A stretch of DNA of 64,000 nucleotides from Brachybacterium alimentarium (GTDB taxonomy: Bacteria; Actinomycetota; Actinomycetes; Actinomycetales; Dermabacteraceae): the NCBI RefSeq assembly GCF_002332425.1, contig NZ_NRGS01000005.1, positions 62,001-126,000 on the forward strand, written 5' to 3'. Shown here piece by piece: positions 29,275 through 37,856 of this stretch (position 1 is its first letter; every line of letters starts with the position of its first letter). Below the pieces are notes generated by a model. That model saw nothing but the letters and a program-made list of their open reading frames with translations. It was not told the DNA's origin and did not search any database. A program made the position numbers and the translations under genes.

Positions 29275-29580
29275 GGCGGCCCTCTCCTCGGGTGGGGTGA
29301 TGTGTGCGAGCGGACGACTCGGGGGATCGAACGGTTCGCGGTGTGACGACGCGCACCGCATGGCGAGGGAGATCTTCTCACGGTGGGGCAGACACCTCCC
29401 GGCGGTGCCGCATCGCGGTGCGGAACGGCGCGACGCGCGTGCACTGAGGGCGCGATGCGCGTGCGGAGCGGGTTCGATGCGAGTGCGGAACAGGAGCGTG
29501 CAGGGATCCGCGGTGGTGACTGTGTGCGGGAGCGGTGAAGCGGATGCCTGCCGGCCGCCGCGCCTCGTAGCATGGCGGAC
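29275..29580. other. 306-bp divergent region between AIM24 and the kinase
   Basis: No gene is supported. It contains the promoter of the kinase (TAGCAT at 29568-29573) and presumably that of AIM24. Two near copies of GATGCGCGTGCGGAGC lie near 29452 and 29480. Confidence 0.4.
29568..29573 (+). promoter_or_regulatory. -10 box (TAGCAT) of the leaderless kinase gene
   Basis: TAGCAT ends 7 nt before the ATG at 29581. The ATG within the box itself (29572) is in frame but would lie upstream of the transcript. Confidence 0.6.
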
Positions 29581-31779
29581 ATGGTCGAAACTCCGCCTCC
29601 CGGCTCCGCGGGATCCACCGGATCGCACGGGTCCCCTCGCGGCGAGCGCCGTGATCCACGGCTGGTCACGCTCGCCGAGGACTCCGGCTACGAGATCCTG
29701 GGCAGGATCGGCGCCGGCGGCATGGGGATCGTCTACCGGGCGTTCGATGCGGATGACCACGAGGTGGCCATCAAGCTGCTGCGTCATGAGATCTCCGACG
29801 ATCCTCGAGCGCGCGAGCGCCTCTCCCGCGAAGTGGCCGCCCAGAAGCTGGTGCGCAGCGACAACATCGTGCGGATCCTGGATGCGGAGCTGGATTCCTC
29901 GGACGCCTTCGTGGTCACCGAGTTCGTGCCCGGCCCGACGCTCGAGGACGCCGTGCGCACCCAGGGCGGCCTGCATCCCGAGGCGGTCCGCGAGATCGGA
30001 CTGGTGATGGGCGACGCCCTCAACGCGATCCACCGCTCCGGTGTGATCCACCGCGACCTCAAGCCCAGCAATGTGCTGCTGCGCGGTGCCGATGAGGAGG
30101 ACCTCACCGGTTTCGATCCCGACGGCGACCGGCTGGACCCCGTGATCATCGACTTCGGGATCGCGATCGCCGCCGAGGAGTCCCGCCTGACCTCGACCGG
30201 GCTCGTGATGGGCACGGCCGCCTACCTGGACCCCGAGGTGATCCGCACCGATCACACCGGTGAAGCGGGGGACTGGTGGGCGTGGGCAGCGCTGCTGGCC
30301 TTCGCCGCGACGGGCCGAGAGCCCTTCGGCAGCGGCCGCGCCGACCTCGTGTTCCTGCGTGCCGAGCGCGGCGAGATCGACGTGGACGGCCTGCCCGTCG
30401 AGCTCGCCGCCTGGCTGCGTTCCGCCCTGCAGTCCGAGCCGTCCCAGCGCCCCGCCCCCGAGGATCTGCTCGCGCGGCTCACGGAGCTGGACCTCAGCCG
30501 TTACGAGGACGCCGGGCCGACGGAGGCGCTGAACACCGATGGCTCTACGGCCGCGCTCCCGGTGACGGGGGCAGGAGGGGCTGCCGGCGAGGACACCGAT
30601 GCCGTGGGCACGGCCGCGACGAACGCTGGTGCTGGTGCTGGTGCTGGTGCAGCCGGTGCGGCTGCCGCTGGTGCGGTCGGCGCGGCGTCGGCCGCAGCCG
30701 CCGACGGGCCCGGGACTGGTGGTGTCGACCCGCGGCCTCCGCACAGCCACGAGGCGATCGGTGACGAGCCGCCGACGGAGGCCCTGCCGCGCGTCGGCAC
30801 CCCGGATGAACCGCCCACCGAGGCGCTGTCCCTCGGCGGCTCGGGGTACGACGCGGAGGACGCTCCCACGGAAGCCCTGCCCGTGATGGGCCCGCCCACC
30901 CGGCAGATGCCCGTCGTGCCCCCGTCGGCCCCGCCGCCGCCCGAGCAGACCGGCGGATTCGGTGTGACCTCGCAGTACCCGGTTCAGCGAGCCCCGCAGC
31001 AGTACGCCGCAGACCCTCGGCAGGCCGCGCACTACCCGGCCCCGGGCCAGACGGTCGCGCAGCCGGCGCAGCATCCCGCGTACGACCCCTCGGCGCTGCA
31101 GCAGGGGCCGCCGCCGGGCTACCCGGTCCAGGGCGGGGGCCAGATGGCTCCGATGCAGCAGGGCTGGCCCGCCCCGGCTCCGCGGCCTCCGCGCCGCCCG
31201 GTGCTGGTGTGGCTCGGGCACCTCTTGATCATCGCCCTCGCTGCGCTCGCGCCGTACGTCTCCCTCATCGCGTTCGTGCTGCTGGGCACCCTCGCCCGCA
31301 CCTGGGAGCGTTCGCACCGACGGATCGCGGACCGCCGCATGCGCGGCTCCACCGGCTCCGGTCCGCTGTGGGCCGCCGGCCTCATCAGCCCGTTCGCCGC
31401 TCTCCTGGGCCTGCTCGAGATCGTCCTGCAGGCCATCTTCCCGCTGATCCTCGGCGTGCTGGTGGGCATCGCGATCGATGCGGGATGGACTCTGCTGGAG
31501 CGCTCGGCCCCGCCCGACGGAGTCGCCTTCGGCGCCGCGATGGCGGTGACGCTCCTGATCACCTGGGTGGGCCTGGGCAGCCGCACGACCCGCAACGGCG
31601 CTCATCGCATGGTCGATGCTGCAGCGCCGGACCGTGTGTGGACCTCGGTGGTGCTCGTGCTGCTGCTGGCGCTGGTGGGCGCCGTGGTGTTCACCCTGCT
31701 GGCCCGCGAGGGCATGGTCGACTACTTCCCGTTCCCCTCCGGCCCCCGGCTCGAGGACATCGCGATCTGGAGGCGCTGA
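29581..31779 (+). CDS. membrane serine/threonine protein kinase with repeated PTEAL motifs
   Basis: A 732-residue kinase. The kinase domain spans about residues 37-305: glycine loop GRIGAGGMGIVY, Lys65 in VAIKLL, HRDLKPSN with Asp159, and DFG at 191-193. A long linker (about 310-540) contains four PTEAL motifs (Thr 314, 399, 413, 430), an Ala/Gly run and a Pro/Gln/Tyr-rich part. The C-terminal part has four hydrophobic spans (about 545-575, 600-625, 650-665, 690-710) and no PASTA or other sensor domain. Being Hanks-type, it should phosphorylate proteins at the membrane. The start is set by the leaderless promoter. Confidence 0.92.
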   Translation: MVETPPPGSAGSTGSHGSPRGERRDPRLVTLAEDSGYEILGRIGAGGMGIVYRAFDADDHEVAIKLLRHEISDDPRARERLSREVAAQKLVRSDNIVRILDAELDSSDAFVVTEFVPGPTLEDAVRTQGGLHPEAVREIGLVMGDALNAIHRSGVIHRDLKPSNVLLRGADEEDLTGFDPDGDRLDPVIIDFGIAIAAEESRLTSTGLVMGTAAYLDPEVIRTDHTGEAGDWWAWAALLAFAATGREPFGSGRADLVFLRAERGEIDVDGLPVELAAWLRSALQSEPSQRPAPEDLLARLTELDLSRYEDAGPTEALNTDGSTAALPVTGAGGAAGEDTDAVGTAATNAGAGAGAGAAGAAAAGAVGAASAAAADGPGTGGVDPRPPHSHEAIGDEPPTEALPRVGTPDEPPTEALSLGGSGYDAEDAPTEALPVMGPPTRQMPVVPPSAPPPPEQTGGFGVTSQYPVQRAPQQYAADPRQAAHYPAPGQTVAQPAQHPAYDPSALQQGPPPGYPVQGGGQMAPMQQGWPAPAPRPPRRPVLVWLGHLLIIALAALAPYVSLIAFVLLGTLARTWERSHRRIADRRMRGSTGSGPLWAAGLISPFAALLGLLEIVLQAIFPLILGVLVGIAIDAGWTLLERSAPPDGVAFGAAMAVTLLITWVGLGSRTTRNGAHRMVDAAAPDRVWTSVVLVLLLALVGAVVFTLLAREGMVDYFPFPSGPRLEDIAIWRR

Positions 31780-31896: not shown

Positions 31897-32712
31897 ATGG
31901 CCGCGTCCGGATCATCGAAGTCAGCGCCCTCGCAGTCAGCGCAGGAGCGCCGCGAGGCACAGAGGGAGAAGCTCCGCCAGCAGCGTCAGGCCGAGCTGCG
32001 CCGGCAGCGTTCCGTGCGCACTGTGGTGATCGCCGCGATCGTCGTGGTCGCGCTGGTCATCGCGAGCGCCATCGGTTTCCTCGTCTACCGCTCCATGCAG
32101 CCCGAGCCCGCACCCACCGTGCCGACCGGCATGAGCGAGGACCAGCCGTACTTGACCTTCGGTGCCCCCGAGGACTCCGGCAAGCCGGTCGTCGAACTGC
32201 ACCTGGACTTCATGTGCCCCATCTGCGGGCAGTTCGAGGAGGTCAACGGTGAGGACGTCATGTCGATGGTCGAGGACGAGGAGATCACCCTCCACCTCGT
32301 GCCGCGCAACATGTTGGACTTCGCCTCGACCACGGGCGACTACTCCTCCCGGACGGCCGCCGCCATGGTCTCCGTCTACGAGGAGGACCCGGAGGCGTCG
32401 CTGGCCTTCATGCAGCTGCTGTTCGCGAACCAGCCTGCAGAGAACTCCGCCGGCCTCACCGACGAGGAGATCTGGGCCTATGCGGAGGAGGCGGGTGCCT
32501 CGGCCGACGTCAAGGCGTCGATCGATGCCGAGACCTACCGTCCCTGGGTGAACCAGATCGCCGATCCCTATGCGGCCGACAAGACGGAGGGCACGCCCTA
32601 CGTCGAGATCGACGGGACGCAGTTCCAGGACTGGCAGACCGAGGGCGCCCTGCGCGAGGCGGCGCTCGCCGCCGGTGGGGACGCCGCGGCCTCCGACGGT
32701 GGTGAGGGCTGA
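31897..32712 (+). CDS. membrane-anchored DsbA-like thioredoxin-fold protein
   Basis: A 271-residue protein. Residues 14-40 form a charged, Gln/Arg-rich coiled-coil-like cytosolic segment, residues 42-63 a membrane span, and the rest a thioredoxin/DsbA-like domain outside the membrane. The redox motif is CPIC (Cys107, Cys110), and the cis-Pro region is likely EGTPYVEI. Actinobacterial members of this group introduce or isomerise disulfides in secreted proteins; several secreted-domain proteins with paired cysteines are encoded next to it. GGTGAGGAG precedes the ATG and a TAAACT box lies about 50 nt upstream. It ends with an acidic/Gly tail. Confidence 0.92.
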   Translation: MAASGSSKSAPSQSAQERREAQREKLRQQRQAELRRQRSVRTVVIAAIVVVALVIASAIGFLVYRSMQPEPAPTVPTGMSEDQPYLTFGAPEDSGKPVVELHLDFMCPICGQFEEVNGEDVMSMVEDEEITLHLVPRNMLDFASTTGDYSSRTAAAMVSVYEEDPEASLAFMQLLFANQPAENSAGLTDEEIWAYAEEAGASADVKASIDAETYRPWVNQIADPYAADKTEGTPYVEIDGTQFQDWQTEGALREAALAAGGDAAASDGGEG

Positions 32713-32785: not shown

Positions 32786-32857
32786 GCTGGAGTGGCGCAA
32801 CGGTAGCGCACCTGTCTTGTAAACAGGTGGTTGCGGGTTCGATTCCCGTCTCCAGCT
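32786..32857 (+). tRNA. tRNA-Thr, anticodon TGT
   Basis: A 72-nt cloverleaf: acceptor arms GCTGGAG and CTCCAGC, D-arm GCGCAACGGTAGCGC, anticodon arm CCTGT-CTTGTAA-ACAGG with anticodon TGT (reads ACA), and T-arm GCGGGTTCGATTCCCGT. The discriminator base is T and CCA is not encoded. It lies 73 nt after the DsbA-like gene and is followed by a strong hairpin. Confidence 0.96.
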
Positions 32858-32864
32858 CGATCAG

Positions 32865-32999: not shown

Positions 33000-34529
33000 T
33001 CAGAAGCGGGAGTAGGTCACCTTGTTCACCGTGAAGCCGTGGCCGGTCATCACGTTCCAGCAGGTCATCCCGTCGAAACGACTCGTGCAGGCCACGTCGC
33101 CGTGGGCTGCGCTCTCGTCGTACTCCAGGGTCTGCGCGGAGTCGCTGAGGAAGGACTTGCCGCAGGCGGTCGCCGCGTCCTCCGCTCCGACCTGGATGGA
33201 GAAGGGGCCGTTGTCACAGTCCTCGAGGCTCGCGTCGGCGTAGTCCCGCTCGAGCACGGAGCAGGCCACGGAGTCGTCCTCGAGCAGGCAGACGATGTTT
33301 CCGGTGGGGGACTTCAGCGCCGTGATGTCTTCGGCGTCGTCGGGCGCTGGGGAGACGGGCTCCTCGGAGGGCTCCTCGGTGGTGGGCTCCTCGGTCGGCG
33401 ACTCCGAGGGGGCCTCGGAGGCCGAGGTCGCACTCGTGCGCTGGTAATCCTCGCCATCGTCGCTGACCCAGGCCCGCACCACGAACGCACCGACGATCAC
33501 CAGCAGAAGCGCCAGCAGCAGGCAGCCGCCGCAGGCGAACAGGGCGCGTCGACCGTTCGAGCCGGAGCCATCGGAGTCGGCCTCCGGTGGCACGGTGGGA
33601 GGGCCGCCTGCCGAGGCGGCCGCAGTCGGGCCGGTCTGACCGTGCGGCGGCACGCCGTAAGGGTCGGGCGTCGGATAGTCGGGAGTCGGATAGTCGGGAT
33701 ACGTGGCGGCCCGGGAGGCGCTGGTGCCAGCAGCCAGGCCCGTACCCGCGGCGACGCCAGCGCCGGCTCCCGCAGCGATGCCTGCGCCGGCTCCCGCAGT
33801 GACGGCTGCGCCGGCACCTGCAGCGGGTGCGGCGTCCGAACGGGATGCTGAGGAGGGGCTGGTCGCGGGGGACGCCCCTGCGGGGCCGAGGGGGACGACA
33901 CGGGCGGACGGGGCCACACGCACGCCGCCGGTCGTGGGAGCGGCGGGCGCGGAGTCGGGTGACGCCGCACCGGCGGGGGAGGGGGCCGACCCCTCTGCCG
34001 GGGAGGACGCGCTCCAGGCGTCGGCCGACGCGAGGTCGCCCCAGACGGACGCTTCGTCGGAAGCCTCGGAGGCCTCGGAAGCCTCGGAGGCCTCGGAAGC
34101 CTCGGAGGCCTCGGAAGCGTCGGGCGAGCCGGTGGCGCGAATACCAGCCGCCGCGACCTCAGGCCGAGCGGGGCTCTCCGTCGTCTCGGTGTCGTCCTGG
34201 TCGGTGACTGCGGGCGAGATCTGCGTGTCGTCCTGGTCGGGGATCACGGGGGACGCCTGGGTCTCGTCAAGGTCATAGCCGTCGGAGCCGCCGGAGTCGT
34301 CGGGGTCGCCGGAGCCGTCGGACGGTTCTGCGGCCCTCATGGCCTCGTCGTACGCCTTCTTCGCCCAGGGGTTCGTCGCCAGGATCCACGATCGCGCCAC
34401 CTCGGGGCACGACGGGTTCAGCACGATCGTCCTCTGCAGCTGAGGGTGCTTCTCGGTCAGTTCGAGAAGGCGCTCCGGCGGGGTGCTCGGATCGCGTGCT
34501 TCCTCAGCTGATGATCGTGGCTCTGCCAC
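33000..34529 (-). CDS. variant leucine-rich-repeat protein with membrane span and DUF6636-like C-terminal domain
   Basis: A 509-residue protein. Residues about 8-55 (ARDPSTPPERLLELTEKHPQLQRTIVLNP) match the actinobacterial variant-LRR module. A long low-complexity linker follows, with DQDDTQ/DQDDTE repeats and six EAS repeats, then an Ala/Gly/Pro-rich segment. A membrane span lies near 329-355, then a Ser/Glu/Pro stalk. The C-terminal 110 residues outside the membrane contain six cysteines and resemble DUF6636 (SPTGNIVCLL, TSRFDGMTCWN). The GTG start has GAGGGAGTGG upstream; the frame upstream continues but has no support. Function unknown; likely an envelope sensor or scaffold. Confidence 0.8.
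   Translation of the reverse strand: MAEPRSSAEEARDPSTPPERLLELTEKHPQLQRTIVLNPSCPEVARSWILATNPWAKKAYDEAMRAAEPSDGSGDPDDSGGSDGYDLDETQASPVIPDQDDTQISPAVTDQDDTETTESPARPEVAAAGIRATGSPDASEASEASEASEASEASEASDEASVWGDLASADAWSASSPAEGSAPSPAGAASPDSAPAAPTTGGVRVAPSARVVPLGPAGASPATSPSSASRSDAAPAAGAGAAVTAGAGAGIAAGAGAGVAAGTGLAAGTSASRAATYPDYPTPDYPTPDPYGVPPHGQTGPTAAASAGGPPTVPPEADSDGSGSNGRRALFACGGCLLLALLLVIVGAFVVRAWVSDDGEDYQRTSATSASEAPSESPTEEPTTEEPSEEPVSPAPDDAEDITALKSPTGNIVCLLEDDSVACSVLERDYADASLEDCDNGPFSIQVGAEDAATACGKSFLSDSAQTLEYDESAAHGDVACTSRFDGMTCWNVMTGHGFTVNKVTYSRF
34060..34116. repeat. 9-bp tandem repeats encoding Glu-Ala-Ser
   Basis: Six copies of a 9-bp unit (alternating GCCTCGGAA and GCCTCGGAG) encode (EAS)6 in the minus-strand vLRR protein. 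The copies are nearly identical, so slippage in frame is likely. Confidence 0.85.
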
Positions 34530-34762
34530 ATCCACTCCCTCGGTGTCGACACGGGCTCGCGGGGGCGCCCAGGTACGGCTCGAGCCGTACGCGGACGGGG
34601 ACGAACCTCCGAGAGTCTGACACCAGGCACTCCAGCGGTCCACTCCCGAGCCCGCGATGTGGATCCCTTCCCGGTCTGGTCGGCAGGTCACGAGATGGCG
34701 CGGACCAGGGGTGCGGGCACACTTTTCCTGCCGTCATCGATCCCGCGGGCCGTTGGATCTGT

Positions 34763-34995
34763 GACGGTGCTCATGGCATGGGCGGGTCGTGGTGGAGACC
34801 CACGGGCCCGCAGGGATCACCGCTCGGCTGCGCGACCTCTGAAACAGCCGGGTCCTCACCGACGGGCGCCGTGCGATCGGTCGGCACGGCCCGCATTCGG
34901 TGTTCTGGATCCCGATGGAGATCATCGGGATCCTGGCGATCGTCGGCGGACTCGTCCTGGCAGGGGCGACACTGGCCGGTGCACTCGTGGCGTGA
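34763..34995 (+). pseudogene. possible gene remnant ending in a membrane-span segment
   Basis: This + strand frame has very high G/C at third positions (about 85%) on both sides of an in-frame TGA at 34840-34842, as expected for a broken gene. It ends with a convincing hydrophobic segment, MEIIGILAIVGGLVLAGATL, then a stop at 34995. A 26-codon peptide from ATG 34915 or a 31-codon one from GTG 34900 could still be made, but neither has a ribosome-binding site. I cannot name the ancestor. Confidence 0.4.
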
Positions 34996-35111: not shown

Positions 35112-35750
35112 ATGAGCGATCACGCGCAGTCGGCGGGCACGACGAGATCTCGGAGGCTGACCGTCGCGCTGCTCCTCTCCATCGGATGCCTCACCGCCTC
35201 CGTGCTCCTGCTGCTGGCCACCACGGCCGGCGGCATCACCTATCTCGTGCTGCAGAAGCGGGCTGCGGAGGCCACGACGACGTTCACCGGCGCGACATAC
35301 GCCTTCGGCTACCCCGTGGACTGGCACCGGACCACGACCGGCGTCGAGCTTCCCGATCCCGATCAGGTGCTCGAGCTCAGGAACGACGACACGACGAAGT
35401 ACGTGACGGTCCTGGACCGCAGCGGGGCGATGTCGGCCGCAGGGGAGTGCTCGGACGCTACCGCGCGCACGGACAGCCAGGGGTTGGGGGCCGACCAGAA
35501 CGAGGTGATCAGTGCTCGTGACGTCGACGGCCGTGAGGCTCTCCACCATCGCGCCGTCGCCACCGACCTGGACGGGGAGCACTCCTCCAGCGTGGTGGAC
35601 ACCTGGTGCATCCCCAAGCCCGACGGGGTGGTCCTCTTCGTGGCCCAGACCTTCAGCGACGATGACAGCCCCGAGTCGATGCCGGATGTGGAGAGGATCC
35701 TGGACAGCTGGGAGTGGACGGTCGACGGCCTGCCCGCGGAGGACTCATGA
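35112..35750 (+). CDS. single-span secreted-domain protein, paralog 1
   Basis: A 212-residue protein with a short basic cytosolic start, one span (about 16-44) ending in GGITYLVLQK, and an extracytoplasmic domain of about 165 residues. The domain has a YPVDWHR motif, two cysteines (AAGECSD and VDTWCIPK) likely to form a disulfide, and ends in ILDSWEWT. The same layout recurs in the next gene and in the gene at 36463, so these are local paralogs. The start was placed just before the basic segment; the ribosome-binding site is weak. Its stop overlaps the next start (ATGA). Function unknown; possibly a lipoprotein-like envelope factor. Confidence 0.75.
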   Translation: MSDHAQSAGTTRSRRLTVALLLSIGCLTASVLLLLATTAGGITYLVLQKRAAEATTTFTGATYAFGYPVDWHRTTTGVELPDPDQVLELRNDDTTKYVTVLDRSGAMSAAGECSDATARTDSQGLGADQNEVISARDVDGREALHHRAVATDLDGEHSSSVVDTWCIPKPDGVVLFVAQTFSDDDSPESMPDVERILDSWEWTVDGLPAEDS

Positions 35751-36364
35751 CGCACCAGCCCACGAGGCCGGCAGGGACCCGCCGTCCCCTGATCCTGCTG
35801 ATCGCAGGCTTCCTGATCGCGGCGCTGCTGCTCACGCTGCTCGCCGTCGGCACGGTCACCTACCTCGTGCTGAGCACCAGGCCGGAGCCCGCCGCCGCCC
35901 CGGAGTTCCCGACCTACCAGGCGCCGACGCCCATGACCGAGGTCGATACCGGCTGGTACACGTTCTCCTATCCCGCGCACTGGGCGCCCCAGGACCCGTC
36001 GGAGGACATCTCCTCGTTCGAGTACGTCCTCACGACCCTCGACGCTGCAGACAACTCGAAGATGGCCGTCATGGACTACGTGGTCGAGGACGGGATCGAG
36101 GAGGAGTGCCAGGATCAGGCCGAGGCGCTGAGACTCCACGAGATGCCCGAGGTCGAGGTGGACGGTCGCGTCGCAGCGCACTATCAGACCATCGCGCCCG
36201 CCCCGGACACGGAGGAGACCATGGTCCAGGACCTGTGGTGCCTGCCCAGGCAGTTCCACATCGTCGTGGTGCTGGGACGCACCAGCGGGCCGGAGGCCGA
36301 GGCCGCAGGGGTCTCCGAGGCCCAGAAGGTCCTGGACACCTGGTCGTGGACCACGGAGTCCTGA
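35747..36364 (+). CDS. single-span secreted-domain protein, paralog 2
   Basis: A 205-residue paralog of the preceding gene. The span (about 13-38) ends in GTVTYLVLST. The outer domain has YPAHWAPQ, cysteines in IEEECQDQ and DLWCLPRQ, and ends in VLDTWSWT. The start overlaps the previous stop by 4 nt and has GGAGG upstream, so the two are translationally coupled. The middle is acidic. No named domain recognised. Confidence 0.78.
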   Translation: MTHQPTRPAGTRRPLILLIAGFLIAALLLTLLAVGTVTYLVLSTRPEPAAAPEFPTYQAPTPMTEVDTGWYTFSYPAHWAPQDPSEDISSFEYVLTTLDAADNSKMAVMDYVVEDGIEEECQDQAEALRLHEMPEVEVDGRVAAHYQTIAPAPDTEETMVQDLWCLPRQFHIVVVLGRTSGPEAEAAGVSEAQKVLDTWSWTTES

Positions 36365-36462
36365 GCATCCCGGCTACTCGACCCGGGGGAGTGTCTCAGT
36401 CAGGGACCAACGAGAGCCAGGGAGAGTCAGGGGGCCCATGGGGCGGGGGTCAGGGCCTCATG

Positions 36463-37182
36463 TCAGCGGACCCAGGTCCACGTATCGAGCATGACGTCGG
36501 CGACAGGCGCGGGGCCGGCGCCGTCGGGGGAGGAGCCCTCGGCGAGGAGGACGACGACGCTCTGGGCATCTGCCATGCAGTATGCATCGCCCTGATGCCA
36601 TCGGTCCTCGCTGTACGAGACCCACCGACTGTGCGCCGCGCGAGCACCGTCGACCATGAGCGGGTCGAGGACCTCGGCGGAGATCGTCGCCAGGCCCTGC
36701 TCCTTGGCGCTGTCGAGCAGCACGGAGCAGAAGCCAGCGGCATCCCGGATGCCCGTCGTCTCGCGAGCGATCGCGACCCGCTGATCCTCGGAGGGGGACG
36801 CGAGTGCCGAGAGCACCTGGAGGGAGACGAACTCAGGGTTCTCGACCTCGGACCATCCCGTCGGGACCACGGTGCTGATGCCGTCCACCTCCAGCGGGAC
36901 CGTCTCCGGGGACGTGGCGGCATCGCGCTGGATGACCAGATAGGTCACTCCGCCGCCGATCGCCAGGACGAGTGCCAGGCACAGGAGACCGGTGCAGAGG
37001 AGCACCGCGCGCACGGCACGCCGTCGGCGAGGAGGCCCGCCGCTCGCCGCGGACTCATCTCCCGCAGAGCCGGAGGCATCCTCCGCGGAGCAGGGCGCAT
37101 CGCCCGCCGGGCCGGGGGACCACTCCTCGCGACCGCCGGGCGGCCCGGCGACGCGGGTCGTGTCCCCGACCCGGGTCCTCAC
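36463..37182 (-). CDS. single-span secreted-domain protein, paralog 3
   Basis: A 239-residue paralog on the opposite strand. A Pro/Gly/Ser-rich cytosolic tail of about 50 residues precedes RRRR and a span (about 55-82) ending in [10 protein letters not shown]. The outer part has VPTGWSEV, cysteines in AAGFCSVLL and GDAYCMADA, and ends in MLDTWTWV. It starts with GTG, overlapping the stop codon of ung (GTGA), so it is coupled to ung. The cytosolic tail is absent in paralogs 1 and 2. Confidence 0.75.
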
Positions 37183-37856
37183 TGCGGGATCCGCCAGTCG
37201 ATCGGTGCGGCGCCCTGCGCCTCGAGCAGCTCGTTGACCCGGGAGAAGGGGCGCGAGCCGAAGAATCCGCGGGAAGCGGACAGCGGACTGGGGTGCGGGC
37301 TCGCGACATACGGCACGTCACCGAGCGCTGGGATCAGGGCCTGGGCATCGCGCCCCCACAGGATCGCCACGAGCGGCCCGCCGCGGGCGACCAGCGCCTG
37401 GATCGCGGCGTCGGTGACGAGCTCCCAGCCCTGGCGTCGATGCGAGGCGGGGGCGCCCGGCGTGACCGTGAGGACCCGGTTCAGCAGCAGCACGCCCTGA
37501 TCCTGCCAGGCCGTGAGATCGCCGTGGCTCGCACGCGGTATGCCCAGGTCGGTCTCCAGCTCGGTGTAGATGTTCGCGAGCGAGCGCGGCAGCGGCCGCA
37601 CGTCACGGTGCACCGCGAAGGACAGCCCGATCGGATGGCCGGGCGTCGGATAGGGGTCCTGACCGACGACGAGCACGCGCACGTCCGCCATCGGGCGGGT
37701 GAAGGCCCGCAGCACGGCATCGCCGTGGGGGAGGTAGCCGCGGCCGGCCTCGATCTCGGAGCGCAGGAACGTTCCCAGGGCGTGGATCCTGTCCTCGACG
37801 GGGGCGAGGGCCTGGGCCCAGTCGGCACTGATGGTCTCGGGAAGAGGCGTCGGCAT
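37179..37856 (-). CDS. ung: uracil-DNA glycosylase, family 1
   Basis: A 225-residue Ung that removes uracil from DNA as the first step of base-excision repair. The catalytic water-activating Asp67 is in [16 protein letters not shown]. The uracil-binding Asn is in LLLNRVLTV (Asn126), and the His/minor-groove loop is [13 protein letters not shown] (His188). Length is typical. Start MPTPLPET follows an AAGACT hexamer at 6 nt, possibly leaderless. It lies divergent from the DUF3263 gene and is coupled to a paralogous membrane protein. Confidence 0.96.

Follow-up and report, generated by a model that had tools for sequence, protein, structure and literature searches.

What kind of protein is encoded by the three neighbouring genes beside ung in Brachybacterium alimentarium, and what might such proteins do? 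The genes lie in a 64,000-nucleotide stretch of DNA (the window) from an actinobacterial genome of 3.98 Mb. In the initial annotation their products were regarded as local paralogues of a single-span secreted protein which carries a conserved cysteine pair and in which no named domain was recognised. They are referred to here as P1, P2 and P3, and are listed together with the conserved landmark gene beside them.

35112..35750, + strand: P1, 212 aa; predicted transmembrane (TM) helix at about 15-48 and Mog1/PsbP-like domain at about 55-204, with Cys113 and Cys166
35747..36364, + strand: P2, 205 aa, paralogue; TM helix at about 10-45; Cys121 and Cys165; its start overlaps the P1 stop (ATGA)
36463..37182, - strand: P3, 239 aa, paralogue; TM helix at about 54-86 and domain at about 94-239, with Cys152 and Cys202
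37179..37856, - strand: ung, encoding uracil-DNA glycosylase; a conserved landmark next to the family genes

Three paralogous genes

P1 and P2 are arranged head-to-tail and P3 faces them from behind ung, and their coordinates agree with the layout first described. The GTG start of P3 lies inside the ung stop codon, giving a GTGA overlap which is found in B. tyrofermentans as well. In that species P1 and P2 are separated by 73 bases and have no ATGA overlap; in B. alimentarium this overlap may couple the translation of the two genes. Scans for sigma-70 type promoters and for terminators found nothing.

In single BLASTP comparisons P1 matched P2 with 58.9 bits (E 2e-15, 26% identity) and P3 with 55.1 bits (E 5e-14, 30%), and P2 matched P3 with 40.0 bits (E 6e-9, 28%). 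When P1 was searched against the whole of its own genome, the only other clear matches were P3 (1.2e-15) and P2 (1.4e-11), with two further matches at E 0.05 and 0.37. The pairwise comparisons and the own-genome search indicate that this likeness is not due to chance, and judged by their sequences the three ORFs are homologous beyond doubt, so that they are local paralogues as proposed. The common motifs that had been pointed out were also recovered: TYLV, the proline of P..W, both cysteines and both tryptophans of the W.W end are invariant in the alignment of P1, P2 and P3.

A membrane anchor

Close to the N-terminus of each of the three proteins, 33-36 residues form a single strongly hydrophobic stretch, with an Arg before it or at its start, and nothing comparable follows further on. 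The single span is confirmed by this, and the description "secreted" has to be replaced, since one N-terminal hydrophobic stretch without a comparable later one points to proteins that are membrane-anchored and not freely secreted. Within this stretch P1 and its single-copy relatives contain SIGC/ALGC, which we take to be a lipobox-like pattern. A membrane helix is preferred over a lipobox because P2 has no Cys there and the stretch continues for about 20 residues; for P1 and the single-copy relatives, lipidation is the less likely alternative. By eye, the Cys-free relatives L069, L070, L072 and L074 are lipoprotein-like, and L071 and L073, which come from outside the genus and have both cysteines, look TM-anchored. 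The domain of P1 is probably extracytoplasmic.

Predicted fold

AlphaFold (AF2) models were built for P1 and P3 from eight sequences, with a mean pLDDT of 84.8 and a pTM of 0.72 for P1, and of 81.4 and 0.63 for P3. The models of these two of the three proteins are alike and share the same order of elements, namely a long N-terminal helix, four strands, a helix, four strands and a helix. Foldseek searches against the PDB at E <=0.001 returned 20 matches for P1 and 27 for P3 with PsbP chains on top, the best being PsbP 2vu4 for P1 (E 1.2e-6) and PsbP 4rti for P3 (E 3.5e-7). Apa, DcrB and Tsi3 were present in both lists, and MTC28, LpqN, BT_1490 and 3lyd were among the additions for P3. The best 999 chains from Foldseek were rescored with VIA-align, and among these 58 (P1) and 60 (P3) reached Z >=8. 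The Z scores for P1 and P3 were 12.0 and 12.8 with PsbP 2vu4, 12.4 and 12.5 with the cyanobacterial PsbP 2xb3, 12.7 and 12.6 with Apa 5zxa, 10.9 and 11.5 with LpqN, 11.3 and 11.3 with yeast Mog1, and 11.0 and 11.6 with DcrB; BT_1490, with Z of about 12-13, falls in the range of PsbP, 2xb3 and Apa. The superpositions had an rmsd of 2.6-4.4 Å over 114-152 residues, with the exception of DcrB on P3 (6.0 Å). A Mog1p/PsbP-like fold is well supported for P1 and P3 by these predicted models, and P2 would belong to the same fold group by its sequence.

Relation to known sequence families

Searches of Pfam and NCBIfam gave nothing over or near cut-off for P1-P3. No match to PF01789 (PsbP; cut-off 23.5 bits) was obtained for the three proteins at E 10, nor any to PF08786 (DcrB; cut-off 27.2 bits) or PF10738 (Lpp-LpqN), the last of which was absent from their whole genome and, among 59 genomes sampled from the order, was present in one. 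Among the relatives, the remote homologue L148 scores 34.1 bits for PF01789, three Cys-free proteins, which belong to other families within the order, reach 21.8-25.4 bits for PF08786, and two more score 13.6 and 16.8 bits for the latter. NCBIfam T7SS_Rv3446c was weak in six of ten scanned proteins (15.6-24.4 bits versus 47.6), and a candidate match of P1 to PF17509 (DUF5440) was dismissed as chance level (15 bits versus a cut-off of 27). PHROGs gave no match for P1 and P3 and one weak match for P2 (E 0.02). PADLOC gave none for P1-P3 and one weak match (E 0.0018) to the N-terminal third of a single-copy relative. Against PDB sequences, the best E for P1 alone was 0.17, and a profile of 17 family proteins ranked PsbP first at a non-significant E of 0.15; in this sub-threshold match the opening hairpin with P..W was aligned to PsbP.

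Profile-profile comparison with hhalign gave a further view of this relationship. The 18 domains of the genus matched 12 Cys-free actinobacterial homologues with a probability of 98.6% (E 7e-16), a value that is partly a result of selection because the Cys-free set was recruited with the family profile itself. These 12 homologues in turn matched, with 97.1% (7e-11), five proteins from the same phylum that score over the Pfam PsbP cut-off; a search of 149 genomes had turned these up in five. Direct comparison of the genus domains with the Pfam PsbP proteins without L148 was weak (20%, E 0.0011, 134 columns), and the match of 91.4% (9e-7) obtained with L148 added is not independent because L148 was also recruited by the family profile. 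One unrelated alignment, used as a control, gave 0.1%. The profiles suggest that the family is linked to Pfam PsbP proteins stepwise, through the Cys-free homologues, and that the direct link is weak. A search of open-licence literature on PsbP with actinobacterial lipoproteins, on LpqN and on Brachybacterium did not find the family described. The earlier view that the family may be undescribed is therefore correct for the sequence family, for which no Pfam or NCBIfam match exceeds cut-off, and incorrect for the kind of domain, because the models match the known Mog1p/PsbP-like fold and the profiles suggest a stepwise link.

The cysteine pair

In both models one cysteine (113 in P1, 152 in P3) is residue five of the mid-domain helix and the other (166 in P1, 202 in P3) sits in the seventh strand. 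The conserved pair noted at the outset is invariant in P1-P3, where the spacing is 44-53 residues, and throughout the 18 aligned genus domains. Of the 41 different domains collected at the loci, both cysteines are present in 21 and absent from 18, and two domains have one; in one of the two (L052) a contig end cuts the domain before the second Cys, and the other (L147) has the second Cys only, shifted by a position. Brachybacterium accounts for 19 of the 21 both-Cys domains and two genera of another family for the remaining two, so these cases are not many independent events, and the pattern follows clades. Outside the genus, 18 of 21 homologous domains are without both cysteines and keep the domain. 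This clade-dependent, both-or-neither pattern suggests a structural disulfide in the outer domain.

Distribution and the ung locus

The family profile was made from 17 sequences, and matches over at least 170 of its 212 model positions were counted. By this measure a family gene is present in 14 of 38 Brachybacterium genomes, and an extra copy in G019 was seen on locus inspection. Larger tallies (36/38 genus, 41/47 family and 28/38 genus genomes) were discarded because many of the matches covered the hydrophobic segment alone. The wider counts that follow take in the own genome as well as proteins used in the query alignments. Outside the family, at least 6 of 297 order genomes match the outer domain. 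An outer-domain profile which includes these six finds, at 1e-5, at least 23 of 396 order genomes (9 from the genus and 14 others) and at least 7 of 396 phylum genomes. Nine genomes from outside the genus had matched at first; G145, G158 and G212 were left out because their matches were confined to the N-terminal part.

Of the 38 genus genomes, 36 have an ung match, and 30 loci were examined with 1.5 kb flanks. A family gene adjoins ung in 11 of these. Seven have one copy (G008, G015, G020, G021, G023, G024 and G028), G001 has two in tandem, G019 has two that are convergent, and the own genome and B. tyrofermentans have three. On the same side of ung, the other 19 loci carry a DUF6636-type gene (nine), treS (four) or neither (six). 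In addition, a family gene lies 1.2 kb from ung in G032 and about 6 kb away in G018, and G029 has a family gene and no ung match. The family gene is an accessory gene found at a conserved spot, mostly beside ung.

Two neighbours on the P1 side had been pointed out before, and both were found as described.

31897..32712, + strand: DsbA-like protein, candidate thiol oxidase (profile match to Thioredoxin_4, E 2.6e-11)
33000..34541, - strand: Cys-bearing membrane protein with LRV_2, a TM span (by eye) and a DUF6636-like end (DUF6636 sub-threshold)

L036 and L038, which both have family genes, carry the DsbA-like gene at the equivalent position. Upstream of it, 29572-31779 (+) encodes a Ser/Thr protein kinase which has a long linker and, by eye, hydrophobic segments at its C-terminal end, and the pair of kinase and DsbA-like gene recurs in L036 and L038. 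A tRNA-Thr gene (anticodon tgt) at 32786-32858 (+) is the sole tRNA found in the window. In the product of 33000-34541 an N-terminal LRV_2 is followed by a long linker of low complexity, a single span (by eye) and the DUF6636-like end, which scores 24.2 bits versus a cut-off of 27. At least 12 of the 30 genus loci encode a DUF6636-type protein on this side of ung, and because it lies beside ung with and without family genes it indicates no specific link. Reading a function from the neighbours was abandoned on the same ground, as DUF6636-type, treS, DUF3263, LytR_C and groEL genes flank ung in both situations. Between the DUF6636-type gene and P1, the frame at 34843-34995 (+) appears to be a remnant of a longer gene. 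It spans only about 50 residues (..IGRHGPHSVFWIPMEIIGILAIVGG..) with an in-frame stop just before, and these match the C-terminal end of a longer protein in G010, G012, G013, G015 and G027; in G013, G015 and G027 the longer counterpart lies at most about 2.1 kb from ung.

History and constraint

In a tree of 21 proteins, P1, P2 and P3 each pair with their own orthologue from B. tyrofermentans (supports 100/99, 100/100 and 97/96, all starred). P3 is further joined by the copy that G019 has beside ung (94/87), by G018 (93/88) and by the G032 protein (90/86), none of these supports being starred. The orthologues are 66% (P1), 73% (P2) and 52% (P3) identical, whereas the paralogues are 26-34% identical overall (31% for P1-P2 and 34% for P1-P3 in global alignment). 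By these sequence comparisons the triplet is old. The dN/dS ratios, computed from dN and dS against B. tyrofermentans, were about 0.37 for P1, 0.30 for P2 and 0.67 for P3. By the same computation ung has a ratio of 0.12, the LytR_C protein one of 0.25 and the DsbA-like protein one of 0.17. P1-P3 evolve fast yet are constrained.

Possible roles

We give about an even chance to the proposal that P1-P3 are non-catalytic, disulfide-stabilised, membrane-tethered PsbP-fold modules with an accessory or binding role in the cell envelope. They would be paralogous single-helix membrane proteins with a predicted N-in/C-out topology, and their outer part would consist of one Mog1p/PsbP-like alpha/beta domain in which a putative disulfide joins the mid-domain helix to the seventh strand. 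Such proteins may attach to a surface-exposed membrane complex or offer something to it, and the three old, diverged copies probably serve different partners. No conserved catalytic set was found in P1-P3; the features that are fully or almost fully conserved across the genus are P..W, a Gly, the Cys pair and W.W. The proposed role is drawn by analogy with extracytoplasmic proteins of the same fold (LpqN, DcrB and CyanoP/PsbP). This analogy is weak because the fold also hosts Ran binding, a photosystem subunit, immunity proteins and chaperones. The functions of the Mog1p/PsbP group are described as diverse, and its members are said to be potential associates of membrane-anchored complexes (PMC7716261). 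The neighbourhood points to no partner, as a DUF6636-type gene or treS lies beside ung in 13 of the 19 loci without the family.

The proteins could instead shuttle a lipid or glycolipid in the manner of M. tuberculosis LpqN, binding it near the anchor and exchanging it with an envelope transporter. In favour of this, the fold matches include LpqN (6e5d), treS, a trehalose gene, is beside the locus in several genomes, and according to a review, experiments with a TMM lipid mimic point to a possible interaction of LpqN with MmpL3 and MmpL11 (PMC7458404). The shuttle is nevertheless unlikely: LpqN is not the nearest match, P1-P3 have no Pfam LpqN match, and treS also adjoins ung in four of the 19 loci that are missing the family. 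Less probable is a function in extracytoplasmic immunity or antagonism, where PsbP-fold decoys of variable copy number would neutralise envelope toxins in the manner of Tsi3 or Tli4. The structures of Tsi3 and Tli4/TplEi are fold matches, the copy number beside ung ranges from 0 to 3, P3 evolves fast, and PsbP/MOG1 domains are listed among the fusions of an immunity family, while PsbP/MOG1 proteins in T6SS operons adjoin toxin genes (PMC3482391). Still, no toxins are among the neighbours identified, the own genome holds no further clear copy, and PADLOC did not match P1-P3, which makes immunity very unlikely. We regard as about equally unlikely its extended form, in which the variable-copy cassette beside ung would be a surface polyimmunity array of disulfide-locked, tethered PsbP-fold receptors, each paralogue acting against a different toxin of rival strains.

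The invariance of the Cys pair in the genus, along with a DsbA-like gene about 2.4 kb away, could be read as a sign of thiol-redox proteins whose redox-active cysteines work with the DsbA-like protein; this is highly improbable, given that the cysteines are too widely spaced for CxxC, that the fold is not thioredoxin-like, and that the many homologues outside the genus which lack both cysteines and keep the domain fit a structural disulfide. That the genes are recent tandem duplicates without distinct function, now decaying, would account for their adjacency and patchy presence in the genus, but it accords badly with the retention in B. tyrofermentans of all three orthologues, which are far closer than the paralogues, and with dN/dS below 1 for each protein, and we regard it as just as improbable.

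Comparison with known systems

As proposed tethered accessory or binding modules, P1-P3 can be set beside several groups of the same fold. Mog1p/PsbP-like proteins (PsbP, CyanoP and Mog1; PF01789 PsbP and PF18933 PsbP_2) have the fold and element order predicted for P1 and P3, whereas P1-P3 have no PsbP-type Pfam match and combine a non-photosynthetic host with a TM anchor and a Cys pair. The mycobacterial envelope proteins LpqN, MTC28 and Apa share both the fold and the actinobacterial envelope. They are lipoproteins or have a signal peptide; P1-P3, in contrast, appear TM-anchored and lack a Pfam LpqN match. DcrB/DUF1795 (PF08786) and the T6SS adaptors EagT6 and SciW are fold matches to P1 and P3 as well (Z 10.0-11.6), but P1-P3 do not match PF08786 and no secretion genes are among the neighbours identified. 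3lyd, a solved protein from Jonesia denitrificans titled uncharacterised, matches the fold with Z of 12.0 (P1) and 11.8 (P3) at 11-12% identity.

Related layouts occur in the same phylum. The proteins L153 and L154 begin with a Cys-rich part that resembles a ribbon, have a single span (by eye) and contain a domain which scores over the Pfam PsbP cut-off; this tethered layout is similar to the one seen in P1-P3. In L155 a domain over this cut-off is followed by a LytR-CpsA-Psr-like domain (by eye), which hints at PsbP-like domains in wall assembly.

P1-P3 thus form a sequence family that is new but has a known fold; it is of an ordinary kind and overturns no established picture. Nameless actinobacterial membrane proteins can now be placed in a known fold class, in a clade where a PsbP-like domain is carried on a membrane helix and probably held by a disulfide, a Cys pair that 18 of 21 domains outside the genus are without. 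What is gained is a ready annotation profile and, at a single site, a set of three old paralogues that lends itself to binding tests.
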